Made by a program: the position numbers and the translations under genes. Shown in pieces: positions 4,460-27,600 of a stretch of DNA of 64,000 bases. Positions within the stretch are counted from its first letter, which is position 1. Every line of letters starts with the position of its first letter. The stretch spans positions 186,001 through 250,000 of the forward strand of contig JAWARJ010000001.1 of assembly GCA_038893495.1 (NCBI GenBank), read 5' to 3'. Origin of the DNA: Thermoproteus sp. Lineage in GTDB: Archaea > Thermoproteota > Thermoprotei > Thermoproteales > Thermoproteaceae. Under the pieces are notes generated by a model. It did not search any database and was not told the origin of the DNA. It was given only the letters and a program-made list of their open reading frames with translations.

Positions 4460-5206
4460 TTACAGGAGACTTGCAATTATATAGGCCAGGCCCAAGGCGC
4501 TTTCGACTATTAGATTTACTGTTTCATTAGTCAAATAGCCGAACGTCTTGTAGTTCTGACATCGAGGCTCGTCGTAAATAACGCCGTTGCAGATGTACTT
4601 CTTCTGGGCCACGGCGCCCAGGACGCTGTCTAGAATATCGCCGGCGAACCCCAGCCCGAACACCACGAGGGGGTTTAGGCTCAGGAGGAAGTACGATAGG
4701 GCCGCTATGGAAGCGGCTCCCGCTAACGATGCAACGAAGCCCGCCGGCGTGACTCCGCCCGAGGTGCCAGGCTCAACTTTAAGCCAGGGCTTTGTGATGA
4801 GCCTAGGCCTGCCGCCATAGGCCACTCCTATCTCGCTGGCCCAAGTGTCGGCGGTGGCTATGGCAATAGCCACGGCGGTCGCCGTCAATGCCGGCTCCAC
4901 GCCGGCTATATAGAGCAGGGCGAAGAGAGCCATGGGCGTGCCGACTCCCACCACCTGCGAGATGGACCGCCCCGCGACATCTTTAAGACCCCGCTCGGCC
5001 TTCCAAGAACTCCTTAGCCTAGTGAAGAGACTGGCCGAGACGAAGAAGAAGACGAAGAGCGAAAAGACGCCGAGTCCTGCCGCCTCGAGAGTCCAAGCCA
5101 CCAACGTCCCCACGACGGCTCCCTTCAGCTTTATGAAGCCGGCCCTATACGCGGCAAAGGCCAGCAGAGGGACTGCGGCGACGGCGGCCAGCAGTATTAA
5201 GTCCAT
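4460..5206 (-). CDS. DUF92 family integral membrane protein
   Basis: A polytopic membrane protein of about 248 residues with roughly six hydrophobic helices. It matches the DUF92 family, which includes plant VTE6 phytyl-phosphate kinase; a role with prenyl phosphates is therefore conceivable here. Family-like features are ATADTWASEIG in the middle, PGTSGGVTPAG, and GFAGDILDSVLGAVAQKKY near residues 190-210. The frame is open to 5236, but ATG at 5206 follows TATA-like boxes at 5224-5242 at leaderless distance, and the protein then begins directly with the first helix. A degenerate copy of its 3' end lies just upstream at 5261-5387. Confidence 0.8.
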   Translation of the reverse strand: MDLILLAAVAAVPLLAFAAYRAGFIKLKGAVVGTLVAWTLEAAGLGVFSLFVFFFVSASLFTRLRSSWKAERGLKDVAGRSISQVVGVGTPMALFALLYIAGVEPALTATAVAIAIATADTWASEIGVAYGGRPRLITKPWLKVEPGTSGGVTPAGFVASLAGAASIAALSYFLLSLNPLVVFGLGFAGDILDSVLGAVAQKKYICNGVIYDEPRCQNYKTFGYLTNETVNLIVESALGLAYIIASLL

Positions 5207-5260
5207 AGGCCCCAGTACCTCATGGTATATATCCATTTAAAAGGGCAGAAATATTCTACC

Positions 5261-5387
5261 GCTTCGTTGGTCAAATAGCCGAACGTCTCGTAGTTCTGGC
5301 ACCGAGGCTCGTCGTAAATGGCGCCGTTGCAGATGTACTTCTTCTGGGCCACGGCGCCCAGGACGCTGTCTAGAATATCGCCGGCGA
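5261..5387 (-). pseudogene. Degenerate duplicate of the DUF92 gene 3' end
   Basis: These 127 bases align at a fixed offset of 740 with 4521-4647 inside the DUF92 gene, with about nine mismatches. They encode the same stretch (FAGDILDSVLGAVAQKKYIC to FGYLTNEAV) but lack both the preceding membrane helices and the final helix. The flanking frame (5197-5472) is unlike DUF92. It is therefore a truncated copy, not a gene. Most differences are single substitutions, so the duplication is not brand new. Confidence 0.85.
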
Positions 5388-5589
5388 AGCCGGTGGCTGA
5401 TGCCAACGACGCCGTCCATACGGCACAACCGCATATACTGCCCAGAGATGCGTAGAAAGTCGGCACAGCCATCCTCTTTTTCCTACGCCGACAGCGGATG
5501 TCTTAACGCCCAAGAGGCGGCGGGCTATGACCGCCTTCTTCGCATGTTGTTTAATTTTCTAGGCTCTTTCAACCCTCCGCCTTTTATCT

Positions 5590-5793
5590 TCATAGTCTAC
5601 ACGCCGTTTTCAGTCCCTCGACGCACTCCGCCATTTCGCCTACGACGGCCTCTACTGCCTCCAGCCTGTAGGCCAGCTCGAATTAGTCCATCTCAACGTC
5701 GACCGCGTCCAGGCCGAAGGCGGCCTCCACAACGCCTCCAGCCCACGTGGCGGCGCCTTCTCCTTCAAGATAGGGGGCGGCCTCCCCTCGATA
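5590..5793 (-). pseudogene. Truncated pseudogene copy of the gene at 6101-6604
   Basis: Reading the minus strand from 5793 to the TGA at 5590-5592 gives residues that follow the C-terminal ~60 residues of the intact protein encoded at 6101-6604. For example TWAGGVVEAAFGLDAVDVE matches TWVRDVIEAVFDLDVVDVD, and RLEAVEAVVGEMAECVEGL matches RLEAVEGIIGEVASYVEGL. An in-frame TAA at 5683-5685 interrupts it, and the N-terminal two-thirds is missing. A tiny plus-strand gene lies upstream, the same order as at the intact locus, so the module was probably duplicated and then decayed. Confidence 0.8.
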
Positions 5794-5843
5794 TGTATTT
5801 AGTCGAGTGCACTGCATAGCCGCCAAGACGCGTCTATAACGCA

Positions 5844-5860
5844 AAAGATATATTGTATAG
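5844..5860 (+). promoter_or_regulatory. TATA-type promoter of the 29-codon gene
   Basis: The A/T stretch AAAAGATATATTG at about 5843-5855 sits roughly 24 bases before the ATG at 5874, the distance expected for archaeal leaderless transcripts. It supports expression of the tiny gene. Confidence 0.5.
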
Positions 5861-5873
5861 GAGATGTCATCTC

Positions 5874-5963
5874 ATGGTAGACGACAAAAAGAAGGAAGAA
5901 GAGAAAAAGGAGAGCGGAAAGAAGGTCACAGTGTTGAGGTTTGTCGAGAGCGGCATCTTCTAA
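5874..5963 (+). CDS. Micro-protein A (29 residues), paralogue of the one at 6846
   Basis: A very small gene. The product opens with a highly charged run (MVDDKKKEEEKKESG) and ends with KKVTVLRFVESGIF. The last 14 residues match the tiny gene at 6846 in the pattern KKVTVxRFVExGIx followed directly by TAA. Both have a TATA-like box at leaderless distance and both lie head to head with a copy of the 167-residue gene. Conservation at the protein level between two diverged DNA copies, with synonymous changes, argues for real coding. The function is unknown; a short regulatory or membrane-interacting peptide is a guess. Confidence 0.6.
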   Translation: MVDDKKKEEEKKESGKKVTVLRFVESGIF

Positions 5964-6100
5964 ACCCCCTTTTTGCGCCCCCTCTTTCGAGCCGCCCCCT
6001 CCATATCCTAGAACCCTTTTTGTGGGCGGCCCGGCGCGCCCGTTTGGGGAAGTGCGGGGCGTCGTGGACGCGGCTGTGTCGAGTTTGCCGAACGGCCCCC

Positions 6101-6604
6101 TCAGCCCAACTCTTCCAGCCGGCGGCCCCTCAGCCCTTCGACATATGACGCCACCTCGCCTATTATGCCCTCAACGGCCTCCAGCCTGGCCGCGAGGTCG
6201 AGGGGGTCCACTTCGACATCGACGTCTACTACGTCCAAGTCGAATACGGCCTCAATGACGTCCCTCACCCAAGTGAGGGCCGTGCCCCTCGGCCCCCTTT
6301 CCCTCGCCTTCTGCCTAAGGGCGTCGTAGACGGCCTTCACCACTGCGAACTCGCGCAAAAGCCTCCTCGCTGTCTTCTCCGCGGTGGACCACCCGGCCGT
6401 GCGGCCCAGCTCCGCCGTGGCCGAGACTATCCTGCCGGCCACCTCGTTGACGTCCCTCCCCAAGTATACCGTCTTCCTCTTTCGCCACCCGGCGTAGAGC
6501 TGTGCGTAGAGGTAGCGCACGCCGTTTCTTACAGCGGCCCATACGTACATCTTTATGGGGCCTACGCTCACAGACGCCAACACCCCGCCGTAGGCAAGAG
6601 GCAT
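6101..6604 (-). CDS. Unknown basic protein of the accessory region
   Basis: A 167-residue protein of unidentified family. The first part (YVWAAVRNGVRYLYAQLYAG, then RKRKTVYLGRDVNEV) looks like a three-strand sheet with basic residues, reminiscent of DNA-contacting sheets in integrase-associated proteins, but no catalytic recombinase motif follows. The rest is helical and ends acidic (VVDVDVEVDPLDL). ATG at 6604 is chosen over the upstream TTG at 6634 because TGTTAAATAG at 6625-6634 forms a TATA box at the right distance. An 8-bp inverted repeat lies just beyond that box. A decayed copy lies at 5590-5793. Confidence 0.65.
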   Translation of the reverse strand: MPLAYGGVLASVSVGPIKMYVWAAVRNGVRYLYAQLYAGWRKRKTVYLGRDVNEVAGRIVSATAELGRTAGWSTAEKTARRLLREFAVVKAVYDALRQKARERGPRGTALTWVRDVIEAVFDLDVVDVDVEVDPLDLAARLEAVEGIIGEVASYVEGLRGRRLEELG

Positions 6605-6634
6605 GTCTAAGCACCACACGCCTCTATTTAACAA

Positions 6635-6658
6635 TTTCGCCGATAAGAAACGGCGAAA
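6635..6658. repeat. Perfect 8-bp inverted repeat at the divergent promoter region
   Basis: TTTCGCCG (6635-6642) and CGGCGAAA (6651-6658) are perfect reverse complements around an 8-base centre, ATAAGAAA. The site touches the upstream edge of the TATA box of the 6101-6604 gene, where it could act as an operator. Part of it, GATAAGAAACGGCG, recurs exactly at 6713-6726. Confidence 0.7.
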
Positions 6659-6712
6659 CTATTGGCCTACTCCACTCAACATCTACACATATGAAATCTT
6701 GGCCTAGACGCA

Positions 6713-6726
6713 GATAAGAAACGGCG
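6713..6726 (+). repeat. Second copy of the 14-bp direct repeat GATAAGAAACGGCG
   Basis: The 14 bases at 6642-6655 recur without mismatch at 6713-6726, 71 bases downstream. Both lie in the intergenic region between two divergent genes. TTGGCCTA also occurs twice between and beside them. This suggests a pair of protein-binding sites. Confidence 0.7.
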
Positions 6727-6845
6727 TGGGGATGTGACTTAAGACAATCTTTAGGATTTCTACTCGACCGCCTCGGCCGTCGTGCGGCGCGGGCCTTGGG
6801 GCGCCCACACCGCATAAAATATATACCAATGGGCAGGCTAGGCCT

Positions 6846-6914
6846 ATGGCGGACGGCAAGGAGGGCAAAAAGAAGGTGACGGTAATTAGGTTTGTGGAGT
6901 TCGGCATCTCCTAA
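6846..6914 (+). CDS. Micro-protein B (22 residues), paralogue of the one at 5874
   Basis: Encodes 22 residues: a short charged start (MADGKEG) followed by KKVTVIRFVEFGIS and TAA. The C-terminal motif KKVTVxRFVExGIx is shared with the gene at 5874, while the charged N-terminus is seven residues shorter. TATA-like ATAAAATATATA at 6814-6825 is about 25 bases upstream of the ATG, so a leaderless mRNA is likely. It lies between the divergent 167-residue gene and the ParA-like gene that begins the DNA-transfer gene train. The function is unknown. Confidence 0.6.
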   Translation: MADGKEGKKKVTVIRFVEFGIS

Positions 6915-6961
6915 AGCCCGCGCGTGCGTTGCGGAGGGGGCAGTAGCTACGGCTCGCCTAA

Positions 6962-6972
6962 AGGCTTATATA
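6962..6972 (+). promoter_or_regulatory. Promoter of the ParA-like gene and the long gene train
   Basis: GGCTTATATAG places a TATA box at about 6964-6971, 24-27 bases before the ATG at 6993. It is the first clear promoter before the plus-strand gene series and supports the chosen start of the ParA-like gene. Confidence 0.6.
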
Positions 6973-6992
6973 GGCCCCAGCGAGGCCTATAT

Positions 6993-7568
6993 ATGTTGGT
7001 ACGGATCTGGCACCCGAAGGGCGGGACGGGCAAGACCACTGTCGCCACCTCCCTTGCCATCGCGCTTTCTAGAAGCTGGGGCCGTACTCTCTATATAGAG
7101 CTGGGCCCAGTCCCCCTTGGGGTGAAACTCCTCGGCGTCCCGCCAGACGGCCAGATACATGAGGGTAGGGGAGGCGTCTTGGCGGCATATACGCCGGACG
7201 TAGAGAAGGCCCGCCCCCTCCTCTCGGCAGAAGGCGCCATGGCCGTCGTCGTGGACTACCCGCCCTGCATAAAGCCCGAAGAGGGCGGCCTTTTGGTGCC
7301 AGTGGCCGACTGGCTCTCGGCATCGACGCTTGAGGCCTTCGGTAACGTCAAGATAGCCGTCCTCAATAAGGATAGGGGCTGGGAGTCGAAGTTGCCGACG
7401 CCCTACGAGCTTGTGAAACTGCCCTACTCCTACGCCGTGGAGAGGGCAGTGGCCGAGGGCGTCCCTCCCGTCCTCGTGAAGCCGCTGTCGAGCGAACACA
7501 GGCAGTTCGTGGAGGGGGTGAAGAGACTAGCGGACCGCATAATAGAGCTGGCCGGCGTCAAGAAATGA
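6993..7568 (+). CDS. ParA/MinD-type ATPase heading the transfer gene cluster
   Basis: A 191-residue P-loop ATPase of the ParA/MinD group. It has the deviant Walker A motif KGGTGKTT at residues 9-16, with the signature first lysine, and a VVVDYPP Walker B-like strand near residue 87. It is shorter than typical ParA, lacking much of the C-terminal half. In plasmids ParA moves DNA; in pilus clusters relatives position machinery at the membrane. ATG at 6993 is preferred over the upstream frame opening at 6924 because of the TATA box at 6964-6971. Its stop overlaps the next start by four bases, implying translational coupling. Confidence 0.8.
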   Translation: MLVRIWHPKGGTGKTTVATSLAIALSRSWGRTLYIELGPVPLGVKLLGVPPDGQIHEGRGGVLAAYTPDVEKARPLLSAEGAMAVVVDYPPCIKPEEGGLLVPVADWLSASTLEAFGNVKIAVLNKDRGWESKLPTPYELVKLPYSYAVERAVAEGVPPVLVKPLSSEHRQFVEGVKRLADRIIELAGVKK

Positions 7569-7963
7569 AGCTCCCGGCCGCAGTCGAGGACGCCGTCGGG
7601 AGACTCGCCAAGCTGTTTAGGCGGAGGAAAGAGCCGTTGATCTACAGATACCTCCGCGAGGAGGAGAGGAAGTATAAACGAGAGATGCGGGGAAAGCTGA
7701 AGTACGACGAGAGGTGGTTTAAGCCCTCCTGGAGGGACCGAGAGGCTTGGCGCCTCGCCCGTAGCTGTAAGGACCCGGAGAGGTGCTACCCCGCGATTAG
7801 GTTCATCGCGTATAGACACGGAAAGGAGGCCGTGCGGTTTCTTTGGCGCCTAGCCGAGAAGGACGTGGATCTAGACGCCGTGGTCCGCCTCGTGGAGAAA
7901 TACGGCGTGAATGACCGCCGCGTTGAGGACTGCATAAAGCTGGGACTCTGCGAGGAGGCGTGA
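7565..7963 (+). CDS. Small basic helical protein of the transfer cluster
   Basis: A 132-residue, strongly charged protein with Arg/Lys-rich helices (LAKLFRRRKEPLIYRYLREE near the N-terminus) and a C-terminal part with two cysteine pairs of moderate spacing (SCKDPERC and DCIKLGLC). No known family is recognised. It overlaps the ParA-like gene by four bases and precedes the membrane-anchored ATPase by four bases. The composition suits a nucleic-acid or membrane-surface adaptor, but this is inference. Confidence 0.65.
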   Translation: MKLPAAVEDAVGRLAKLFRRRKEPLIYRYLREEERKYKREMRGKLKYDERWFKPSWRDREAWRLARSCKDPERCYPAIRFIAYRHGKEAVRFLWRLAEKDVDLDAVVRLVEKYGVNDRRVEDCIKLGLCEEA

Positions 7964-7967
7964 CGCC

Positions 7968-9872
7968 ATGAGGAAGCTCGCCAAGAATTGGTACGACCTC
8001 TCGCTTTACGCCCTCGCCGGCTCGCTGGCGGGCGTCCTCTACAGCCCCGCCGCGTTTGTATTCACCGGGGCAGTCCTCTGGGCTCTTGGGGATAAGATAT
8101 TCGCCCGCTTGTCGCCGGAGCCCATCGAGCCTAGACGTGTGGAGAAGGCTCTGGGAGACCTCAAGGCCGCCTACGACCCGGACGCCAAGTGCTGGCACTT
8201 CCTCTGGAGGGCGGAGCCCCTTGTCAGCGCTCTGGGCGCCGAAAGCTACCCCGAAATACACAAGCTGATCAACGCCTTGGCGCTGGCGCCGAATGAGGCG
8301 TTTTCTTTTATCATGTTGGAGAAGAAGTACATTAGGTTTACCACATGCGGCGTCTCCGACAACGACGCCATGCGCAGAGCACTTGAAATAGAAAAGGCCA
8401 TAACGACGCAGTATACGCTAAAGAGAGAAGAGCCGTGGCTCGGCACGCGCAAGCCGCCGGCGGAGAGGCCCTTCTGGATTGTGCTGGGGGCCGTGCTCGC
8501 AATAGGCTTCCTGGCCAAAGCCCTCCCGTTCGCCATACCCGTCGCGGCCCTGGCATACTACAAATGGCACAAGTTCAAACGCCGCTACTCATATACGGTG
8601 CTCCCATTTGAAGCGTATGCGGCCTCCTTCGAGGGCTTCTACCAGTCGCCGTCGATTGTGGACCGCATTGCCGCCACGGAGGCCATGTCCTTCTCGCGGG
8701 CTCAGAAGTATTGGGCCGTTGTAATAACGCCGGCGCCGGACCACGTCATGATCAAGAAGTTCTCTAAGTACTACGAGTCTGTGAGGGAGAAAGGCCATAT
8801 CTACGTCAAGATGAGGAGATACGCCGAGGCTTTAGAGAGGATTCAGAGAGGCGAGAAGTTCCTCTACCTCATGGCCTTCGGCGAAAGCGCATACCGCGGC
8901 TCGACGACACAGTTGAAGAGGGCGCCGGGGGTGGCCGGCGCCATGTTTTGGAAGTTAGACCACTGGAAAGAGGCCTTCTCCTTCGACCTGGCTAGATTCC
9001 CCATCCTATACGGCGGGATGCACTTGGAGACGGAACGGCGCTACATCAACCTCGGCGTGGAGCACATATCCGGCAGAGACGTCGTTGTGGACATAGACTC
9101 ACTGCCGGCGCCCCACGTCCTCGTGTTCGGCGGTAGCGGCATGGGCAAGTCCAAGACCATGGCGTGGCTTATCCAGCAACTGAGGGACAAGGGGGTCAAG
9201 ATCGCAATAATCGACCCCCACGGGGACTACCGTTGTGTGGCTGAGGAGCTGGGCCTTAGGAGAATCCCGCAGAATTTGATACCGCCTCTAGACAGAGCCG
9301 CTCTTGCAAAAATCGCCGTGGAGTTCGGCTTCGGCAGGACTGAAGAAGCCCTCAAGGAGCTGGGCTTCGAGGTGGGCATGGACCCGCCGGCGGAGTACCA
9401 CATCTCGCTGTTGGGCATGGACCCAGTGCGCCAGAGCTTCGCAGTGACGGCGTGGACGCTGTACGAGTTGAATAGAGCGAAGGACAGAAGGTCCGAGAAG
9501 CTGGAGAGAGTCCTCGTGGTGGACGAGGCGTATCTGGCCAAAGGCCCCGTCCACGAGATGCTTGAGTTCATGTCGAGGGGAGCGCGTAAGTTCGGCCTCG
9601 CCGTCTTCTTGATAACGCAGTTGCCCATGGACGTGCCTAAGTCTCTCGTGGATATGGCGGCTGTGAAGTTGGTGTTGGGCGGCTCTAGTGAGTACATTGC
9701 GGACGCCGCGGCGTATTTGAACTTGACGCGTGAGGACGTGTCTTGGATAAACTCGGCGAGGGCGCCCAGAGAGAGCGGAGGCGTGGTGAGAGCCGTCGCG
9801 TCGCTTGCCCCCGGCGCCCTGAAACACCACGTGGAGATACAGCTACCAATGGAGGTCTTCCAGTGCACATGA
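7968..9872 (+). CDS. Membrane-anchored VirB4/HerA-like ATPase (CedB/TedB-like)
   Basis: A 634-residue motor ATPase. Hydrophobic helices lie near residues 10-45 and as a pair near 165-195, followed by a cytoplasmic HerA/VirB4-type domain with Walker A GGSGMGKSK at about 387-395, a Walker B region VLVVDEAYLA near 514, and a sensor-like stretch (AVFLITQLP). N-terminal membrane anchors plus this domain are the layout of CedB, the ATPase of the crenarchaeal DNA-exchange system, and its Thermoproteales counterpart TedB. It probably drives DNA through the membrane channel formed by the CedA/TedA-like proteins encoded downstream. The assignment rests on architecture and context. Confidence 0.8.
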   Translation: MRKLAKNWYDLSLYALAGSLAGVLYSPAAFVFTGAVLWALGDKIFARLSPEPIEPRRVEKALGDLKAAYDPDAKCWHFLWRAEPLVSALGAESYPEIHKLINALALAPNEAFSFIMLEKKYIRFTTCGVSDNDAMRRALEIEKAITTQYTLKREEPWLGTRKPPAERPFWIVLGAVLAIGFLAKALPFAIPVAALAYYKWHKFKRRYSYTVLPFEAYAASFEGFYQSPSIVDRIAATEAMSFSRAQKYWAVVITPAPDHVMIKKFSKYYESVREKGHIYVKMRRYAEALERIQRGEKFLYLMAFGESAYRGSTTQLKRAPGVAGAMFWKLDHWKEAFSFDLARFPILYGGMHLETERRYINLGVEHISGRDVVVDIDSLPAPHVLVFGGSGMGKSKTMAWLIQQLRDKGVKIAIIDPHGDYRCVAEELGLRRIPQNLIPPLDRAALAKIAVEFGFGRTEEALKELGFEVGMDPPAEYHISLLGMDPVRQSFAVTAWTLYELNRAKDRRSEKLERVLVVDEAYLAKGPVHEMLEFMSRGARKFGLAVFLITQLPMDVPKSLVDMAAVKLVLGGSSEYIADAAAYLNLTREDVSWINSARAPRESGGVVRAVASLAPGALKHHVEIQLPMEVFQCT

Positions 9873-14246: not shown

Positions 14247-14726
14247 ATGCGGATGCAAAAGTCGAAGAGGAGGAAGTTCTACAGTCTGATGTTCATAGTT
14301 GCACTGGCCTCGGCGCTGGCCTACGCCCAGACCACCACCAGTAGTACAACCACAGCCGCAAACGCCACCGGCGGCGTCACTAGCGCCGGCTGGTGGCAGA
14401 ATACCGCTAAGAATATCGTGAACTTCATGAGAGACATACTCGCGGCGGCCTTCTGGGGCTCCCTCGCGTTGTTGCTAATGTACGCAATACTCACATGGAT
14501 AGGCCCCACCAAGTTCACTAGGCTCGGCGCCATGTACGACTTCATAGACACGGTGAAGGGCTGGTTGCTGGCGGTATTCGTGATATCGGCCGGCATAGTG
14601 GGGCTAGTCGCCGGCATATCGGCAATCACTGGCGCCTTCGGTGTCCAGACCACCGTAAATCCGGCGCAGGTGCTACATGACTTATTGGTTCAACCTATAC
14701 TCCAGGCGTTCGGCATAAGCTCATGA
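14247..14726 (+). CDS. Conjugative-pilin-like protein (TedC/CedA1-like)
   Basis: A 159-residue secreted pilin candidate. A basic start (MRMQKSKRRK) and hydrophobic core ending in ALAYAQ near residue 28 form a signal peptide. A Thr/Ser-rich stretch follows, then two long helices at about 65-85 and 105-130 joined by a short positive loop (GPTKFTRLGAMYD). Signal peptide plus two-helix hairpin is the architecture of VirB2-type conjugative pilins and of the archaeal TedC/CedA1 pilins. It has its own promoter and overlaps the next gene by four bases (ATGA). It probably forms the DNA-transfer pilus. Confidence 0.75.
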   Translation: MRMQKSKRRKFYSLMFIVALASALAYAQTTTSSTTTAANATGGVTSAGWWQNTAKNIVNFMRDILAAAFWGSLALLLMYAILTWIGPTKFTRLGAMYDFIDTVKGWLLAVFVISAGIVGLVAGISAITGAFGVQTTVNPAQVLHDLLVQPILQAFGISS

Positions 14727-15637
14727 GGAAACTCCCCTTTTCCCTCCTCCTCTCACTGCTTTTGTTGGCCCCTCTGGCGTACGCCCAGTACCCAGATGTG
14801 GTGGGCACAGGCGCCACAATTCTGGGGGGCTTCGCGGCATATGCAGGCATCCTCATGCTGACTGGCATCCGCAGGCTCAAAGAGGAGGCCTACGACGTGC
14901 TCTATAGGGGAGCCATCTCGGCGGCGCTCTTCGCCTTGGCGCTGGCCATCGGCCTCCTGGCGGCCCAAACCGCCACATACTTCGCCTCTAAACTAAACGC
15001 GACGGGCGGCTGCTTCAAGGCGCCGTCCTTCACGCCCGACAACTTAGCCCTCTACAGATACGCCGAGTGGGCATCCGCCGGGCTGAACTGCGCCGCGGGG
15101 AACTACAGCAAGTGGGTAGGAGACCTCGCCGGCTCTATCTCAACACTGCTGGCAATTGTGGGGGTCGGCGGGTCGGCCCCCATCCTACAGAACATGCTGA
15201 TAAACTTCGGCCAGATCCTCATGGCATATGTCAGCGCCGCCCTCACCCTGGGGCCTCTGGCAGTATCGGCATATGTGGCCTCCCTATTCGCCTCGGGCAT
15301 ATTGGGGACATCTCTGTTGCTGTACCTAGCGGCGCTTGGAGTCCTACACGAGAGGACTAGAGGCCTCGCCTCCGGCGTCCTCGGCGTATACGGAGCGTCG
15401 CCGACGCTCATATTGGGGGCAGACTTCCTAAAGGCGAAGATAGACGCGATGGGCGGCCTGTCTCTGCCCGCGTGGGACCCCTTCGTGCCTGTCTTCTGGG
15501 CCGATGCGGCGTCGAAGGCCTTCGACGTGATTGAGGTGGCCGCATACGCGGCGCTGGTCCTTGCGGTATACGGGGCGTTGGCATACGGCATATCGCGGAT
15601 ATTCGACCACGCAGGGGTCTCCCTTGCGGGAGAATGA
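14723..15637 (+). CDS. Multi-span membrane protein of the transfer machine
   Basis: A 304-residue protein with an apparent signal peptide (RKLPFSLLLSLLLLAPLAYA, cut near AYAQ) and about seven further hydrophobic helices. A Cys-containing external loop (about residues 90-130, with GGCFKAP and LNCAAGNYS) could hold a disulfide. It follows the pilin directly (ATGA) and precedes the giant gene directly (ATGA). The topology fits a VirB6/CedA-type channel subunit, and the giant downstream has a similar head, so this may be a partner of TedA. Confidence 0.65.
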   Translation: MRKLPFSLLLSLLLLAPLAYAQYPDVVGTGATILGGFAAYAGILMLTGIRRLKEEAYDVLYRGAISAALFALALAIGLLAAQTATYFASKLNATGGCFKAPSFTPDNLALYRYAEWASAGLNCAAGNYSKWVGDLAGSISTLLAIVGVGGSAPILQNMLINFGQILMAYVSAALTLGPLAVSAYVASLFASGILGTSLLLYLAALGVLHERTRGLASGVLGVYGASPTLILGADFLKAKIDAMGGLSLPAWDPFVPVFWADAASKAFDVIEVAAYAALVLAVYGALAYGISRIFDHAGVSLAGE

Positions 15638-18600
15638 GCTGTCAGGTCCCCAGCCCCTTCGGCGGGGATTTGCTACAGCTGGCCGTATACGCCTCGATAG
15701 CCCTAGGCCTCTTGAAGCTCTTCGTCTTTAGGGATTGGGAGGGCTGGTGGAGGCCCATAGTCGCCGCCCTACTGCCGACGGTGTTAATACCGGCGGCGCT
15801 TACGGCGGTGCTTAACGCCTTCGGCATGCCTACGCCACTCTACGGAGTAGACGGGCTCCACATGTACACGGTTGTCTCTAGCAACGACCTATGCCGCAAT
15901 CTGGCCGTGGCCGAATACGTCTACAACAAGCTGGAGTCCTCAACGCTCAGTCTGGTCAACACGTACGCCGCGGCGACCACGACGCTCACGGTGATAGACG
16001 GCATACTGACTGTAGTCACGGGAGGGGCGTGGCAGGCTTTGGACTACGCCGAGTCCGCCTTGAGGCTTATGGGCTTTCAGAACTGGGTCAACGCGCTGAC
16101 CCAGCCCATCCTGGCTATGGTCTACATCTACATGTCCCTCACCGTAATCTGGCACATCGTGGTGGTCATGGCGAGAGTCGCCCTATGGGCGCCCCTCCTC
16201 ATATCGGTGGGGGTGCCTCTAGTGGCCGTAAGGCGGACTAAAGACTTGGGCGGAGTCGCCATCGCCCTAGCCGCAATAGCGGTCGCCGTCTCCCACTTCG
16301 CCTTTTTGACGGCGCTTGACGTATATGGGATGGCGCTGTGGGGCGGCGCCTTCGCCCAAAACCTAAAGGACGCCGCAGGCGGCTTGCAGATAAACTCCAC
16401 GGCGGTGCCATACGGAGCGCCCCAGCTCGCCATATTCGGCGGCGACGGCGTTTACTACATCGTCTACAACAACACATACCACGCCTCGGCGGTGCAAAAG
16501 GCCATGGAGGAGAACCCATTCTTGACGACACTGGTAGACCAATACGCCAACAACACCTATTTGAAACAACTGGCAGAGGAGAGGAGGCAGGAGTACCTAA
16601 ACGTGCTGAAGAGCTGGCTGAATAAGACCTCCCTCTACGCCAAAAACGTAACGAACGGAGTCCTGGCGGCCGCCGGTCCCTCTGTGGGGGCCTTGGAGTG
16701 GGGCAATAAGGCGATGAACGCCTCCGCTTGGTACGACTGGCTGGAAATGGACGTGACGTTGAGCGTGGCCAAATGCAACTCCCTCATACCGCAGGAGTTG
16801 GAGGGCCTTTTCCAGATGGGGCGGGAGCTAAACAGCAACATCACAGCCATAGTGGAGCGAGCCGCAAACGAGACGTGCGCGTGGCTCCAAAAGGCGAATC
16901 TGACAGATCTAGTCTTCAACTACGCCGGTAGGTACAGAACGCTTGTTGCCGGCTATACCTACAGCCTATCAGCCATGTGGGGTAACTCTACCGCTTTGCT
17001 GAGTAGGTCCAACGCGAGCGGCGCAGTGGGGCTGTGGGATTGGGCTGTCGGCTACGGGCCAGATGGAGAGAAGTGCGTGGTGGCTGGCCACGTCGTTAAT
17101 TGCGACTTTATGAACGTCACGGCGTCGCTGGGGCGGCTCACGTACGAGATGCCGAACGGCACGTTGACGTGGATAGAGCCCGCGACCTACCCAGTCCAGG
17201 TCCAGTTCAACGCGTCTCTACAGCTGTCGTCGGGGAGGCCATACCCCACCGACAAGATACCTCTCTACAAGACCACTGAGATATGTACGTGGTGCGCCAA
17301 GTGGGTCAACGGCACTTGCGCCCAGTGGGCCTCGGCCTATAGGGACTGGTGGGAGGAGTATACCGCCAAAAAGGTGTTGTCTCGCGCCAACTACACTCTG
17401 CCGAGGCCCTACTCGCCAGAGCCTTGGCGCTACCCGCCGGGGACTGCCGGAGCCCTCAACGTGACGTATGTGGAGAGGACTTGGTCGATTAGCAAGTATT
17501 GGGTGTACGGCAGTTGGTATCCTCAAGCTCCGCCTCCAAACGCCACGTGCTACTTCACGAGCCCCTCCGTCTACAAGTACGTGGTGTTGCTACACGTGCC
17601 CCAGCCCTACGTACGTGTGGTGTACTACTGGGCTTGGCTCAGCGGCGCAAACATAAACGTGAGTCCCAGCGCACAGCCGACCCTCCCGGACACCCTCCCC
17701 GCGTCGGAAGTCCCGCCGGATGCGAGGCCTAAAGACGGGCTGCCGGCAGACTACTACCTCTGGGGCGCCGAGAATGCAGTATACTGCTCTTCCGCCGTCG
17801 TTGTCGGCGAGTACGAAGGGTGGAAAGGCATGCTTAAGGCTCTGCCGCTTGTCGACGAGATAAATAGGGAGGGCCTCTTCGCCTCTCTTGCGCTCCGCAA
17901 CGCCACGGCCTCCTACTACCAGGTGAGGCAGATTCCGAGCGGCATCCAGTGGCTGATCGGACTGGTGCAAGGCACTCCCGGCCAGTGGGCCGTCCCCGCG
18001 CTTGAGGAGGGGCTGGGGTACGCCAAGGGCAATTGGCACGGCTATTTGTGGCACCCCATGCCGGAGCCTGTGCCCTCCTCGTATAGGCTGTACCACCTAT
18101 ACGCCGCCTGTATAGTCTTCGAGTGGAACTCTACGAGGTGGCCTCCCGGCGGCGTGAAAATGCTGGGCGCGTTGAGGCTTACGCCAGGCAGAGAGGTCTG
18201 GGCAGTCGACGCGCCTTTTGCGTATTCCAACGCCACCTTGACGCTCCTAGACGTGACTAACACAATGTTACATCACTTTCTGACTAAGGGCTTCCTCCCG
18301 CCCGCGCCGGCCGAGGTCTGCATTCCGGTGGGCAACGGTAGCATATGTGGGGCGCCGTATCTGGCCGGGATGCTCACTGGAGTCTACTGGGGAGGGCCCT
18401 GCCCCTACGGGACGAACAACTGCGGCGGCTACGTCAGGCTGGACATGTTCCCGACGGGGCCTTGGGGAGTTCCCTTGGTTGGCAATTTCTTCTCGCAAGA
18501 GATGTACAACACCTTCGAGGTGGCTATGGCCTATGGGGAGGCTTGGAAGAGGCTTATCTTCGCCGGCATCCTAGTGCTGGGCGTCTTCGAGGTTATGGGC

Positions 18601-21600
18601 TTCCTATTCGGCTTCCCCACACCTGCACGCCTCCTGTACTCGGTGGCTTCCGACATCTTGTCGCAGTTGGGGTACTGGATGGGGTTCCGCATTGGCCTAA
18701 AGGCCAAGTTGGGCAGGAGGCTCATACAGCCCATAAGGGCCAGGCTGGTTAGGGCCTCCCGCCTCATAGCCGCAAAGTTGCCGAGGATAAAGCCGTTGGG
18801 ACTGCCCTCTAGGGAGTGGCTGAGAGACCCGCGGCGTTGGCTTTGGGAACGTGTGACCCGCCGGTGGGAGGAGGAGAGGCGGAGGCAGATAGAGGAGAGG
18901 CTGTCCAGCCCGGGCGGGAAGGAGGAGTGGGAGATACGCATGGAGCAAAAGCGCCGCTGGAGGGAAGAGGCAAGGGAGGCGCTCAAGAGGATATACCACG
19001 CCGCCCAGGCACACGACGTGGTGGAATTCGCCAGAAGGCTCTCTCCCCGCATAGACGCCTTCATCTCGAGAGTCGAGGAGAGGCTTGCCGAGAGGCATCC
19101 GACTCTCTACAAGCTTTACGTCTTGACGTATCGGGGGCAATACGGCTATCTCTACCTCCTCGCGGAGCCCGTGATACGCAGATGGGAGGCCGAGGGCAAG
19201 ATCACTAGGGCCGAGGCCGACCAGTTGCGAAAGCTGAGGGCGGCGTTGTGGGCCGCCGCGGCTGAGGCAAAAGCGAAGGCGGCTGAGGCCGAGAAGGGCG
19301 TAGACCCCAAGCACCTCAAACACGTCTTGGAGTATAGGGAGAGGTACGTCCAGTACGCCTTGAAGGAGCTGGAGCTTATGCGTTTCGCCAGGACTAAGGA
19401 GGAGCTGGAGGGGCGCCTTAGATATGCCGCCTCGCACCTACAGCGTATAGACCCCAAGGGCGCCTCCAGGCTTTGGGAGGCGCTAGAGGTGGCGGCTGAG
19501 GGCAAGAGGGTCGGCCTGAAGACCACTGGCGAAGTTGCGGAGTTCCTGTGGGAGCGCCGCGAGGGGCTTGACGTAATCGCCCAGAGGGCCAAGGAGCTGA
19601 TCGCGCAACACTACGCACACGCGCCTCTGTCGGTCAAGGACGTGGCGAGAGAGGAGGTATACAGACAGGTAATTAGGACGACGCCTCTACTTGAGGCACT
19701 GGCCAAAGCCCGTAGATACGCCGCAACTGGCGAGGGCATAGAGGACGTGGTACAAGCCCTTGAGGCGAGGGAGGTGAGAAGGGCCGCAAGGGCGGCCGAA
19801 GTGGAGCTGGGCGCGGTGAGGAGGGCCGCGGAGAGGGCGGCGAGGCTCGAAGAGGAGAGGGCCGGCCTACTATCCAAAATCGAGGAGTTGAGGGGGAGGG
19901 CTGAAACGCTGAGGGCGGAGCTTGAGGCGATGCGCCAGTCGGGAGTGTCCTTCAAGGAGCTTGAGGGGAGGCAGAGGCAGTTAGAGGAGGTGTACAAAGA
20001 AGTAGAGAGATTACAACAACGTCTCTCTCGCGTTGAGGAGAGGCTTGTCGAGGCGAGGCGTAGGCTGGCCGTAGAGGCGAGAGAGGCGCTGGAGAGGGCC
20101 GTCAGGTCCTACAGAGGGGTCTTGGAGGGAGTGAAGTACGAGACGGACCCCGCATATATCGAGCTGAGGAGGGCTTTGCTTGAAGGCCGCCTCGACGTCG
20201 CCTATAGGGAGCTTAGAGGGCGCTACGAGAGGGAGGGCAGAGACGTCAGGCAGGTGGACAGGCTGTATCAACAACTGAAGCCCTACGAGGCCCAGTTGCA
20301 AAGGGCGAGGGAGGAGCTTAGGGCCGCCGTCAAGGAGCGCGAAGAGGCCATTAGGGCCGAGGCGGCCAAACGTATGGAGGCCGTGACGTATCTAGAGTCT
20401 CTGTTCAAGGCCCTACCGACAGCCACAGAGGAGGACGTACGCAGAGGCGTCGAGATGGCGAGACAACTCGGCCTCGAGAGGACTGCCGCCTTTCTGGAGG
20501 AGTATCTGAGACACGGACAGGTTAGGGAGAGGTACGCCTCAGCCGCATCTACTGCGGCTGTGGCCTTGGGGAGGCTGGCCGGAATGCGCGAACAAGCGGC
20601 GAGAGAGCATCAAGCCGCCGAGGAGAGGCTAAAGCGCGTCTCGCTTGCTGAAGACGCCTTGAGGCGTATAGGCCATGCTACGGAGTTCGGACAGGCGGCG
20701 AAGGCCGCGAGGGAGGCCGGCCTGGAGAGGACGGCTTTATTCCTGGAGCGCTGGGCGGCGTTAAGAAGACAAGCAGAGGAGAGAGGCGGCCTTGAGGTAG
20801 TGAACAGATTGGGCAGAGCTCTGGCTGAAGGCAGGCTTGCCGAGGAGGCCTCCGCAATGGCGGCTGAGGGCAAGGCCCTCGGCAATTGGTACGGCAGAGT
20901 CGTGGAGCTCAGACCCCTCTACGAGGAGGCGGTCAAAGAGGCGGCCAAGGCCAAAGCCGAGGCCGAAGCCACCACGAAAGTTGCGGCCGAGCTGAAGGCT
21001 CTGATGGAGAAGGCTAGCGCCGAGTCGCCTGCCGACCTAATCGCAAGGGCGTCTAAGCTCGACGTAGGGGAGCTGAAGAGGGCCGCAGAGGCGGCCAGGC
21101 GGGCCGGTCTTGAACATACGGCCAGATACTTCGAGGAGCTTGCTGAGTTCGCGACGTCGGCAAAGGAGGGCGCCAAGGCGCTGGCTGAATACTCGAAGGC
21201 CGAGAGGAGGCTTAGGGCGTTGGAGGCCAAGGCTAGGGCCGAGCTCCAAAAGGCTGAGAAGGTCGCGGAGGGCCTCACAGCTCTGCTTGAGGGCAGAGAG
21301 TACGAGAGGCTGGCCCACGTGAGGTCTGCGCTTAAGGCCCTAGACGAAAAGACGAGTAAGGCGCTGGAAGGGCCTTTGGGGAGGCTGGCCGAGGTGAGGA
21401 GGGAGGTTGAGCTCCTTAGGGGCCACTACACCTACGAGGTTGGAGGGCCGGTCTGGCGTGAGTTGAGACAACGCGGTATAGACACCTTGTTGTTGAGGGC
21501 GCCGTTGAGCGCGTATGTGGCGGCCACGCTTGAGGGCTCCCTTCTGAGAGAGGCCGCCGAGGCCTTTAGGCCCTCCTTCTCGAAATATGAGCGCGAAGCC

Positions 21601-24600
21601 GCCACGACAATCGTATATCTGCCAGTGTCTGAGGGCGAGAAGCTGGGCCCCGTCATAAGCTGGGAAAGGGCCGTCAAGGGCGATGCCAGGCCCTACGTCG
21701 AGGAGATAGCCGAGACGAAGGCCCCCACCTTGAAACAAGCGGTCAAAGAGTATTACGCCGGCAGGGGCAGGCAGTACAGAGAGCTGGCCTACCTAGAGGC
21801 CAGGGCCGCAGAAGCGGTACTGGACGTACACGCCGCCCGGTACTTCCTTGAGAGGTACGCGAAGGAGGGCAGACAGGAGGATTTGGCGCTGGCGATTGCA
21901 CTCGCCTACCGCGCCGCCAAGGCCTACCAGAAGTATCAACACTCCGACCTCGGCCAGCTGGCGGAGCTGGTGGCAGAGATAAGGCAGAGGCTGGGCCTGG
22001 CCGGCAGAGACGTCACGACGGAGGCTCTGGCCGCGTCAATTCAACAACTAGGAGGAGATAAGGCCCTCAAAGAGGCCCTAAAACCGAAGAGCGTCGAGGA
22101 GGCCGTCAAGTGGCTTAAGGCGGCCTGGGCCGCAGTGGACTACAGAACGTTGGAGTCGAGGTTAGGCCTCACTCGCACCTACACAATACCGGAGCCCGAG
22201 ATGGCCCTTGAGTATACGGCCAAGGCCCTTACTCCTTCTAGAGCGGCCGCCCTGGCTGAAGGCAAGGTGGCTGAGGAGGCCTTCTCGGTCATGAGGGCCT
22301 ACTCCCTACTGAGGGAGTTCGAGAGGTTCGTGAGGGGGAGGCAGAAGGAGGTGGCGGCAAAAGCCGATCTGCGTGTGGCTAGGGCTTTGGAGAGGCCTCT
22401 GCCTTTGTTGCAGACCAGCGCTGTGGATAAAGCCGCCAAGGAGGCCGCAGCAAGGCTCGTGAGGGAGGCCGAGGCTCTGGCCCAGAGGTACGGCCTTCGC
22501 CACGTCGAGACGAAAGCCGTGTTGGAACAAATCAAAGAGCTTGTCAGAGTCTCGCCTGGGGCCTTCGGCGAGCTGGTAAGCGCCGCCTCTACGGCGAGAG
22601 GGCCCTTCAAGGAGTGGGCTAGGCAGTTGGTGGCTGAGGTGAGGCGCAACTGGGACTCCTATAGGGAGGGCTGGGAGGCGCCCGTACTGCAGAGGCTGGA
22701 GCTGTTGAGGAGAGTGCCGGCCGCCTCCGGGGCCGAGTCGCCTATTCCGAGAGAGCTTATCGCGCTGGCCCTCTGGGCCGAGCTGAACCCGAAGCTGGCT
22801 GAGTTGAAGCGGGCGGTCGGGGAGGTTTCTCCGGCCGCAGTAGAGGAGGCCTCGCTCATGGCGGAGGCCATTAGGGCGATTCAGAGGGATTTGGAGAGGC
22901 TGAAGGCCGTAGACTTGGAGAGGCCGATACGCCTCTCGTTCGAGGCGCTGGAGCGGAAGACGGCTGGAGGCGTCGAGAGGCTTGTCGTCGACGAGGCGGC
23001 CGAGTTGAGCAAGGCCTCTCGCTACCTACAACACTCAGACTTGCGCGTTAGGGAGGAGGCTGAGCTCCTGCTTAAATTCGCCCGTGGCGAAATTACGCGC
23101 ACTCAACTAAGGGAGGAGCTGGCGGGGCGTGGAGGCCCCGTGACTGAGGAGGGCCGTGAGGCCGTCTCCGTGGAGAGGAGGCTGAGGGACATACGTGCGG
23201 AGCTCGTGTCGCGTCTGGCCGTCAAGATGGCGGTCTTGAAGGACGTCGAGAGTCTGAGGAGGGACGCGCTTGGCGTGGCCTATTGGGCCGCAGTCAAGAC
23301 GGGCCTAGGCGACGAGAAGGCCGAGAGGGAGCTCCGCACGTTGGCGGCCATAAGCCCCAAGGCCGTAGAATACGCCGAGTCGCTAAAGCTGTTGCGAGTG
23401 CTGACCGAAGGCCTCGACCGCGTAGTGTACGAGCCCGAGCTGGCCAAAAGGCATCCAGAGCTCCGCGATGTACTGCTTGAACGCGACCGCGCGCTCAAGA
23501 AGGCCGAGGAGCTTGAGAGGTCGGGAGATGTGGAGAGGGCAGTCTTGGCCGGCCTGTTGAGGGAGTTCGCTGAGGGGCACGTCTCGCGCGGCCAGTTGCT
23601 CAAGGCGGCGGAGGAGAAGGGCGTCGACCTCTCCGAGTTCTCTAGAGAGAACATAGAGAGGATGCGCGGCATGGTGATGGAGCGCGTAAGGGAGATGGCT
23701 GTGGAGCTTTCTGCATATAGAGGAGAGTACAGGTCGCTTAGGGAGGCCCTTGAGGCGCGTCTGCCCATGGGCCTATATGCGGAGCTGGCGGGCGAGTTGA
23801 GGGTGAAGTTAGAAGAAGCCGCGGCTAGGGCCGGCGTGCCTCTCGAATATGCCAGTCACGGCGTCGTTGAGGGCGCCGCCAGATATGCAGTGGAGCTGGG
23901 CCGCCTCGCCTCGCGCCTCCCCGTGGAGGTTGAGGGGGTCCAAGCCGCTCTCGACTCGTTGCGGAGGGAGCTTTCCTCCATAGACGAGCCGAAGCTGATA
24001 GCGGAGCTGGCCAACGGCAACTACTCAACCGTGGAGAGGATAAGGAGGCGAGTCGAGGAGGTAGAGGCTGAAGTGGCCAGGGCGGCCCTCGAGGCGGTTC
24101 GTAGGTTTGGCGTGAGGGGGGTGCCGCCTGAGCTGTTGGAGCTGGCGGCCAGGGCCGAGTTCACGCCGGAGGAGCTTTCCTCCATTAGGGCAGAGCTCAA
24201 GGCCGCCTTGGAGGCCGCCGCGAGGGGAGGGGCATTCACATGGCCTCAGGCCGAGTATAGATCGTCCATATTCGCAACCACCGACGAGAAGGCGGCTAGA
24301 GCCTGGAGGCGCGGAGGAGGCCTCGTGCTTGAGGAGTATATACTCACGCAGTTCGGGCCCAAGAGGGTCTACATATTGGCGCCGAGGAACGCGCCCATTG
24401 AGGAAATCCGCGAGGCTCTCTACGCGCTTAGGGGCGTCGAGGTGATAGGTATGCCGAAGTGGCTCGCCGACTGGTCTGTGGCGGAGGCTTTGGGCTTTGA
24501 GGTGGAGCGCACCGATAGGGGAATCGCCTTGAGGTCGAGAGTAGAGGCCCTTATAGACTTGGAGAGGCCTCTGCCCTACCGTAGAGAGGTCTGGGAGGCA

Positions 24601-27600
24601 TTGAAGAGGGCTAGGCCCGACTTGGCGAGAGAGGCCGTAGGAGTCGGGTGGTCTGTAGTCCACTGGGAGGACGGCCTCGCGGCCGTCAACGCGTACCTCT
24701 TCTTGAGGAGGATGGCCAGGTGGGACTCATTCGGGCCTGCCGACGTGGAGAGGGCTCTTGAGGAGTATCGGAGGCGCTTCACGCCGGCCTTCGAGCGGCA
24801 TCTCCGCGCCATGTCCCTCGATAGGCTGGGCTTCGACGTGGTGGACTTCTTGAAGGGGGCATATGCCGTCGTTAGGAGGCTTAGGGGCGAGCTGGCAGTA
24901 TACAAGCCGCAAGACCCCGAGGCCTACGCCCGCCTCATCTGGTGGGCAAAGAGGAACGCGAGGGGTTCTCTCTATGAGCTCTTGGAGCCGGACTTTAGGA
25001 TTGAGGCCACGTTGAAGGCCCTCAACATAGCCGTCAAGGGCGGCTGGCTTTCGCTCTCGGAGGCCCTTTCGCTTTTCGATTCGTGGCGCCGCAACAACGA
25101 CGTGGCCAAATGGGACGAAGAGGCGCTGAGGATTGCCCTACGCGGGAACCTCCGCATGAAAGAGACAGAGGAGGCCATTAAGCGGTTCGTCGAGTCGATT
25201 AGGACGTCCAAACAGCTGGAGGCCGAGGAGGTAGCTAAGGAGAGGCTGAGGCTCATGGAGGAGCAGAAGAGGAGGGAGGAGGAAATGAAGAAAATTAGAG
25301 GTATAAGGGAGGCGAGGCCTAGGGCGAAGCCGGCAGAAGAGGCCGAGGCGTCTCAAAAGGAGGAGGCCGAGCAGGTCAAGAAGGAGGAGGCGGAGAGGGC
25401 CAGGCCTGAAGCTGGGGAAGCAATCAAGGCGGAAAGGCCTGAGGGGGCTAAGGCCGCGGTGCCGGAGGCCGAAGGGCCGGCTGAGGAGGTTAAGCCGGCT
25501 GAGGCCGAGAGGGCTGGGGAGGAGGTTTCCTACATAAAGCTGGGCCACGTCTACGTCAAGTCGACATACATGGAGAACGCCGTGGTTAGGGCGTTCGCGG
25601 TGGAGAATCCCGTCGAGTGGCACCACAAGCTGACGCCGGAGGCCTATCTGGAGCTTAGGGCCGGCCTTGCGCCGTTCGAGTTGGAGAGGCTCGAGGCCGC
25701 TAGGGAGAGGGCCGCCGAGAGGAGGAGGGCCCTTTCGCTTCTGGCCGAGCGCTACGGCTCGATCGCAGTGCCCGAGAGGGTTAGGAGGGAGGCCGAGAGG
25801 AGGGCCTACGCCGAATTTATGAGGCATTTCGCCCGCCTCGCGTCGTTGTACGACCCCGAGGCCGTGGAGGCCGTGAGGAACCGCCTAATGGCGCTTGTGG
25901 CGGAGTGGGTCGAGATGGAGGACGTGCCGAACGCCTACGAGTTCATCTACAACGTGATGTGGACTTGGGAGGGCGACCCCAAGACTAGAAATGTGAGGGA
26001 GGAGTGGGGCTACTGGCTATTCCGCGAAGACTTCAAGGCGGTGAAGGAGCTGGCTGAGCGCTACGGCGTAGACGCTATGAGGCTGTGGAACGCATACCGC
26101 TCCGCAGTAGACAGGTATCTGGACACAGTTACGTCCTACGGCGACGCGGTGAGGAGGGCCGTCACGACGGTAGACAGAGCCCTATATGTGGCGCTCACCG
26201 CGGCTGGCGGCGTCGCGCTGGCCGAGGCGTTGCACGGCGCCGTAAGGCCGGAGCTTGTCTACGCCGCCACCGCCGCGGCCTCGCTGGCTCTCGCCGGGAA
26301 GTACAGAGACGCCGTACGTGTAGTCAAGACGGCAGTGGAGAACGTCAAGGCTGTCGTCGAGAAGGCGGCTGAGGGCGTGAAGCTGGCCGTCGAGAGGCTG
26401 TACGAGGCGGTTGTCGAGACGGCGGCCCGTATAGTCCAATGGCTGGGCGGGCACTGGAGGGCCGTTGCCCTTATCGCCGCAGCCGCGGCGGCCGGGCTGA
26501 TCGCCTGGACGGCGGCCCACCAGATGCAACACGCGCTGTTTATCGACCACGCCGCAATTCTCGCCAAGGCCGGCTTCTTGGGCGTAGGCGGGGTCGCAGA
26601 GGACAGAGACGCGTTGCGCCGGCTGTGGAGCAAGGCGCTGGAGGACTGGAGCCTCGCGGCCGCAGGCGAGAAGGTCGAGGCGGTTAGGGCGTTGATGAGA
26701 GACAAACCCGTCTTAGCGGATAGGTTCGAACAAGCCGAGAGGTCCGCCGCAGAGGAGGCGAAGCTGAGAGCCGCCGTCCTCAAGAAGGCGCTTGAACTGC
26801 GCTGGGAGCCCACCGCCGAGAGGGCTGTGGGGACGTTGGTGGAGGAGACGGTGGGCCCGTCCTTGAAGGAAGAGGAGCTGGGGGCCTTCGGCGTGTGGAA
26901 GGGCGTTAAAGGCTTCCTCTATAAGCTACACGGCGAGGGAGGGGGCGTTCTGAACGTCGGCGGCATCGAGGCGAGGGGGCTATACGCGATAATCGCAAAG
27001 ACCGGCGGGAAGACAATACGCGTTGAGGTGTACGCGAGGGAGGTAAACGACAAGAGGTTTGAAGAGGTGGAGACCCCCATCGGGAGGCTCTACAGGCTGG
27101 CCTCGTTAAGCGTGTCCGTGACGAAGGGCGGCGAGCCGAGCACGTCCACCCTCAACTTCACTGCCCCGATTGAGCGGGAATACCGCGTTGGGGTGGAGCT
27201 TGGCGAGGAGCAGATAGGTAGCGAGAGACGGATAGGTAGCGAGGAGCAGAAGAGGAGCGGGCTCTACGGGTTCGTGTTGACAGACATCGGCGAGAATATG
27301 CTGAACAGCCCCGACCTGTCGCTACACATGTCGCTCGGCCTATTCGCCAACATCAAGAAGATGTACATCGACGACGCCCCCCTCACAGACGCAGGCCTAT
27401 CGCTACATATCGTCTCTAAGATCGAGGAGAAGTTCCCGCCTAAAGTCTTCTTCTGGGAGGCCATGATGGGCGCGATTAGGGAGGCCTTGGGCCAAGAGAA
27501 GCTCGAAGACCCCAACAGGGTCCTTGAGGCTCTGTGTGGAGGTCCCTGTGTGGACGAGAGAGGCCGCCCGAGTGTCGAGCCTCTCTTGAGGGCCCTTAGG

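Follow-up and report, generated by a model that had tools for sequence, protein, structure and literature searches.

Predicted micro-proteins of Thermoproteus and Pyrobaculum as truncated paralogues of a small single-helix membrane protein

The window, which is the whole stretch of 64,000 nucleotides analysed here from a genome of Thermoproteus sp. (GCA_038893495.1, contig JAWARJ010000001.1, positions 186,001 to 250,000), carries near its beginning two tiny open reading frames, m1 and m2, in front of genes for two ATPases and a pilin. Both ORFs are present where a sequence-only reading of the same DNA had put them, in position and in strand.

5608-5754, minus strand: decayed C-terminal remnant of a 167-residue gene, upstream of m1 (tblastn, 57% over residues 109-159)
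5749-5975, plus strand: duplicated segment with m1, other copy at about C1:1876.54-1876.86 kb (blastn, 91-94%)
5844-5853, plus strand: TATA-like element of m1, 30-21 bases 5' of the ATG, seen in the sequence and aligned in 16 of 16 family members
5874-5963, plus strand: m1, micro-gene 1, ORF of 29 codons, product MVDDKKKEEEKKESGKKVTVLRFVESGIF
6101-6604, minus strand: 167-residue gene, divergently oriented to m2, without a Pfam or PHROG family and with further copies in the source genome
6816-6825, plus strand: TATA-like element of m2, 30-21 bases 5' of the ATG, seen in the sequence and aligned in 16 of 16 family members
6846-6914, plus strand: m2, micro-gene 2, ORF of 22 codons, product MADGKEGKKKVTVIRFVEFGIS, member by family profile (E 1.7e-8)
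6993-7568, plus strand: ParA/VirC1-like ATPase gene (Pfam CbiA, 3.9e-6; PHROG ParA-like), starting 78 bases after the m2 stop
7968-9872, plus strand: HerA/VirB4-like ATPase, candidate TedB
14247-14726, plus strand: TedC pilin (PDB 8dft, E 1.7e-26)
14723-15637, plus strand: multi-span membrane protein with six hydrophobic stretches, directly 3' of tedC, candidate TedA

The sequence-only reading placed a copy of one 167-residue gene head to head with each micro-gene. This is correct for m2, which diverges from an intact copy, but not for m1, which has only the decayed C-terminal remnant upstream. The 167-residue gene is kept beside one of the three other micro-gene copies in the source genome (G000). 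Its family, without known relatives, is represented several times in this genome, by copies that are intact or decayed (window 6101-6604; loci L042, L043 and L044), and the model of its protein was all-helical at low confidence (pLDDT 50), with no usable fold. Just upstream of the m1 region, positions 5197-5472 on the minus strand partly repeat the C-terminal portion of the gene at 4460-5236 (45 residues, 93% identical); the region is thus pieced together from duplicated gene ends.

The products of m1 and m2 have in common the motif KKVTV[LI]RFVExGI[FS], with the stop codon directly after it. This sharing is far above chance, as a degenerate 38-base pattern of the motif matched five sites in the 2.0 Mb source genome with up to three mismatches, versus none for the reversed pattern. 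The differences between the two motifs had been called synonymous and conservative; four codons do differ synonymously, but the three residue changes (L/I, S/F and F/S) are conservative only in part. Besides m1 and m2, the pattern search gave two more micro-genes and a 45-residue protein as the remaining match, and a fifth micro-gene was found by reading the stretches around related loci. These genes and a larger paralogue of the source genome are located as follows.

C1:1876552-1876641, minus strand: third micro-gene, 29 residues, protein identical to the m1 product (motif pattern search)
C1:1046064-1046120, minus strand: fourth micro-gene, 18 residues, MADKRKVTVLRFVKFGVF (motif pattern search)
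C1:1065404, plus strand: fifth micro-gene, MADCKEEKRRVAVIRFVEFGVF
C1:693037-693171: gene of the 43-46 residue membrane protein, product MTASQTNKKVTVLRFVEFGIFALVLVLAAVGVIKPTGTNSGFGIF

In total, 16 micro-genes were found, five in the source genome and 11 in other Thermoproteaceae, with products of 18-36 residues. Four genomes of the same genus (G002, G003, G004 and G005) and seven of a second, Pyrobaculum-like genus (G006, G007, G008, G009, G010, G011 and G015) have a single micro-gene apiece; the product in G007 is, for example, MSEESKEKKEHEKKGLKVVKRYETYITVVKMEVL, and those of G006 and G011 are identical. The search found none in G001, G012 and G013, and no convincing one in the rest of the order, where only the profile of the larger paralogue was used. 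Most of the relatives in other genomes are likewise small ORFs ending at the same motif position, and the architecture is constant in both genera: a polar, usually K/E-rich tail, the shared segment and the stop. The micro-proteins of G005 and G003 retain KVVEL- or RVVVL-like residues, which resemble the Pyrobaculum-like segment. By these searches, a micro-protein family, unnamed until now, occurs in most sequenced Thermoproteus and Pyrobaculum.

A TATA box at leaderless distance had been noted for m1 and m2, and it holds for all 16 micro-genes. Positions -25 to -21 before the ATG are all A/T in 16 of 16, versus 3.8% of random ATGs in the window, in a count whose orthologues are not independent of each other. 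Since a TATA box would stand here if transcription began at the ATG itself, the promoters are probably of the leaderless type. Moreover, m1 and the other 29-residue copy differ by six synonymous and no nonsynonymous changes (p 2.6e-4, transition-weighted), and the micro-genes of G008 and G015 by four and none (p 0.005). Close copies differing only in synonymous positions point to coding sequences instead of RNA or chance ORFs, and by this measure m1 and m2 are genuine protein-coding micro-genes under purifying selection. The proposal of paralogous protein genes with leaderless-type promoters was therefore borne out, and as related genomes do contain more copies, the sequence-based half of the refutation named for it does not apply.

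A protein of 43-46 residues, for which one membrane helix is predicted, carries the motif as well, as its N-terminal half. This protein was found in 14 genomes, namely in 13 and, as a diverged candidate recognised by position, in G013; its start codon is uncertain in G007. In the carrying genomes, its gene is convergent with a gene for a KaiC-like ATPase, which in G001 is represented by a fragment at the end of a contig, identified by inspection alone. Four genomes (G014, G016, G017 and G018) and the rest of the order gave neither a close KaiC-like match nor a 43-46 residue protein at the thresholds used, and no convincing similar small membrane ORF stands alongside the second-closest KaiC-like paralogues. 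G008, G010, G012 and G015 have 5-6 KaiC-like paralogues per genome, including a second ATPase close to the one adjoining the membrane protein gene. For the G002 protein, AlphaFold2 run on the single sequence gave one helix at residues 3-32, followed by a flexible tail. When wider genome contigs were searched with the Thermoproteus-like subset of the membrane-protein alignment, one named record was obtained, Thermoproteus sp. CP80. Neither the micro-protein nor the membrane protein has a Pfam family or, at the cut-off, an NCBIfam model; solved structures gave nothing significant for the two (best E 0.21 and 2.3, respectively), and a literature search found no paper on such genes.

All micro-genes have their stop codon at the homologue of the position where the membrane segment of the 43-46 residue protein starts. 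Every member is paralogous in sequence to one portion of a larger protein encoded in its own genome and lacks the effector part of that protein. The alignments identify the micro-proteins as truncated paralogues of a core membrane protein of Thermoproteaceae that has a single predicted helix. Proteins this small are difficult to establish from sequence data; it is conservation, promoter position and the larger paralogue in combination that mark the predicted products of 18-36 residues as conserved proteins.

To get insights into the relation between the two paralogues, we compared their shared segments within and between genomes. In five Pyrobaculum-like genomes, the segments of one genome have an identity of 0.72-0.94, with a mean of 0.79; permuted pairings average 0.62, and a fraction of 0.008 of the permutations reach the observed mean, in a test over 14-18 residues of few and related genomes. 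When G011 is included, whose pair is mismatched (22% identity), the own pairs average 0.69 versus 0.58 (fraction 0.022). In the Thermoproteus-like genomes alone, own-genome pairs are not singled out. At the matching codons of own-genome pairs, 6-10 of 13-17 differ synonymously, which disfavours recent gene conversion as the source of the similarity. These comparisons suggest that the micro-protein and the membrane protein of one genome evolve in step, and paralogues that track each other in spite of many synonymous differences suggest a shared partner. We infer one old duplication followed by matched change in both proteins, or there may have been separate duplications in each genus.

The reading we prefer, at a probability of roughly 0.4, is that the micro-protein acts as a soluble competitor or adaptor that shares a partner with the membrane protein. 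The shared segment would be the site by which both proteins bind one common partner; the membrane protein would hold this putative partner at the membrane, and the micro-protein, expressed from its own promoter, would bind it in the cytosol and so compete for it or relocate it. The KaiC-like ATPase may be the best candidate partner, from gene neighbourhood alone, because it is the constant neighbour of the membrane protein gene. The extra copies in the source genome arose by duplication, partly around the Ted locus described below, and may simply raise the dose. Several observations count against this reading: micro-genes do not adjoin the KaiC-like gene, the membrane protein is present in G001, G012 and G013, where no micro-gene was found, the G011 pair is mismatched, and own-genome pairs do not stand out among the Thermoproteus-like genomes taken alone.

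Evolution in step would also be expected if the micro-protein were a subunit packing on the membrane protein through homotypic shared segments, or a stoichiometric small subunit of the same complex, with no regulatory competition. The matching tetrapeptides of the membrane protein (see below) could pack in such a homotypic way, and every micro-gene-carrying genome outside the source genome has a single copy. On the other hand, the loci are independent with separate promoters, and the micro-gene was not detected in the three genomes named above. We regard a subunit as rather unlikely.

The membrane protein has a further peculiarity, that is, the tetrapeptide ending the shared segment resembles its own last four residues. 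The inner and C-terminal tetrapeptides read FGIF/FGIF, LGIF/LGIF, GGIF/GGIF, ISVL/ISIL, FAIL/FDIL, FAKL/FEKL and YMVF/YEIF. In 13 proteins, 38 of 52 positions are identical, whereas 21.3 are expected by permutation and 23.6 by permutation within genus; other offsets gave at most 14. The observed value was reached by none of 100,000 permutations, and the resulting p of about 1e-5 is optimistic, as the pattern was noticed before testing, the comparison took in about 25 offsets and the proteins are relatives of one another. This covariation is unexplained. A prepilin-like (class III) signal peptide was considered for the membrane protein and rejected, as the residue before the cut would be M in one genome and the matching C-terminus would be left unaccounted for.

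The covariation leads to two further proposals. One extends the competitor reading to a lineage-wide two-part switch in archaea, in which a single pocket would be contested by the tiny membrane protein and the truncated, soluble paralogue. This pocket would read a short hydrophobic tetrapeptide in the helix of the membrane protein, at its C-terminus and at the C-terminus of the micro-protein, and all three occurrences would evolve with the pocket in each species. We consider this extension speculative and unlikely to hold as a whole. The other supposes that the membrane protein is cleaved by a putative protease behind its inner tetrapeptide (e.g. FGIF), which would release an N-terminal peptide ending like the micro-protein, that the micro-gene encodes this peptide ready-made and that one pocket reads all ends. 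The covariation of the two tetrapeptides at that offset only and the homologous end position of the micro-proteins are in its favour, but the inner site lies inside the predicted helix, and the ends of the micro-proteins match the core tetrapeptides only loosely. Processing of this kind thus seems improbable.

The sequence-only reading proposed that m1 and m2 could encode signalling peptides, toxins or small membrane regulators of an element. The gene content of this element is that of a locus for Ted, the Thermoproteales exchange of DNA; Ted loci usually include a ParA-like gene, and tedA lies after tedC (PMC9905601). Directly 3' of the candidate tedA, a single ORF of 4857 codons occupies window positions 15634-30207, with several hydrophobic stretches near its N-terminus and no Pfam match in its first two thirds. 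A second locus of the Ted type is present in the source genome at about C1:95-106 kb (L045, C1:95001-110000); it also contains the start of this giant ORF and is 86-94% identical to the window locus in most matching proteins; there, tedC, tedA and the giant-ORF start are opposite in orientation to the ParA-like and TedB-like genes.

The association of micro-genes with such a locus is in line with a peptide of the element, as three of the five copies in the source genome adjoin a ParA-like gene or its remnant, namely m2 and two further copies that lie next to decayed ones. However, the second Ted locus has no micro-gene, and the relatives occupy ordinary chromosomal sites in Thermoproteus- and Pyrobaculum-like genomes. 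The ParA-like, TedB-like and neighbouring genes of the Ted locus were not found beside the micro-genes of other Thermoproteus-like genomes, where the neighbourhoods were searched; those of Pyrobaculum-like genomes were read by eye. As in the published Ted system (PMC9905601), the ParA/VirC1-like gene is part of the locus, and m2 stands directly 5' of it in the source genome; the micro-gene differs in that the other genomes examined do not have it beside this gene and the second locus lacks it, which argues against a conserved component of Ted. An association with Ted thus seems confined to the source genome. In G002 and G005, the micro-gene is head to head with a nitrilase-family gene, and in G007, G008, G009 and G010 it lies about 110-280 bases from a tRNA gene. 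This tRNA proximity (loci L104, L117, L118 and L120) may explain the change of the gene's position between species. The neighbours vary between genomes, none being an evident exporter or antitoxin by inspection. Moreover, the N-termini of the micro-proteins are charged, without a signal-like stretch, and the 29- and 22-residue products have no membrane segment, so that a small membrane regulator does not fit them. A viral or phage origin was rejected, as phage and viral-contig collections gave no match. An element-specific peptide is therefore disfavoured, and we hold it to be quite improbable.

Least of all do we expect a conserved RNA or chance ORFs instead of protein genes: ORFs of this length are often spurious and transcripts of such size would resemble small RNAs too, but close copies differ only synonymously, the ORFs keep their end but differ in length and in the sequence upstream, and Rfam had no match in window 5000-7600 (E 0.1) and, at nine other micro-gene loci, gave tRNAs alone and nothing over the micro-genes.

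Finally, the predicted competitor can be compared with known small proteins. MicroProteins, which are known best from plants, are truncated paralogues with the role of competitors. Like these, the archaeal micro-proteins would be short proteins keeping only the binding segment of a larger paralogue under their own promoter, but the larger paralogue is here just 43-46 residues, membrane-bound and archaeal, and competition or dimerisation is putative. CydX, KdpF and AcrZ are small membrane accessory proteins, which the core paralogue resembles in size and in its one predicted helix; the micro-proteins, on the other hand, end ahead of the helix, and neither protein matches the families in Pfam or, at the cut-off, NCBIfam. 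If the evolution in step holds, these genes would offer a good archaeal system in which to study how truncated paralogues compete. The repeated tetrapeptide is a specific putative binding site open to testing, and several hyperthermophiles with these genes are in culture, so that expression can be checked directly.
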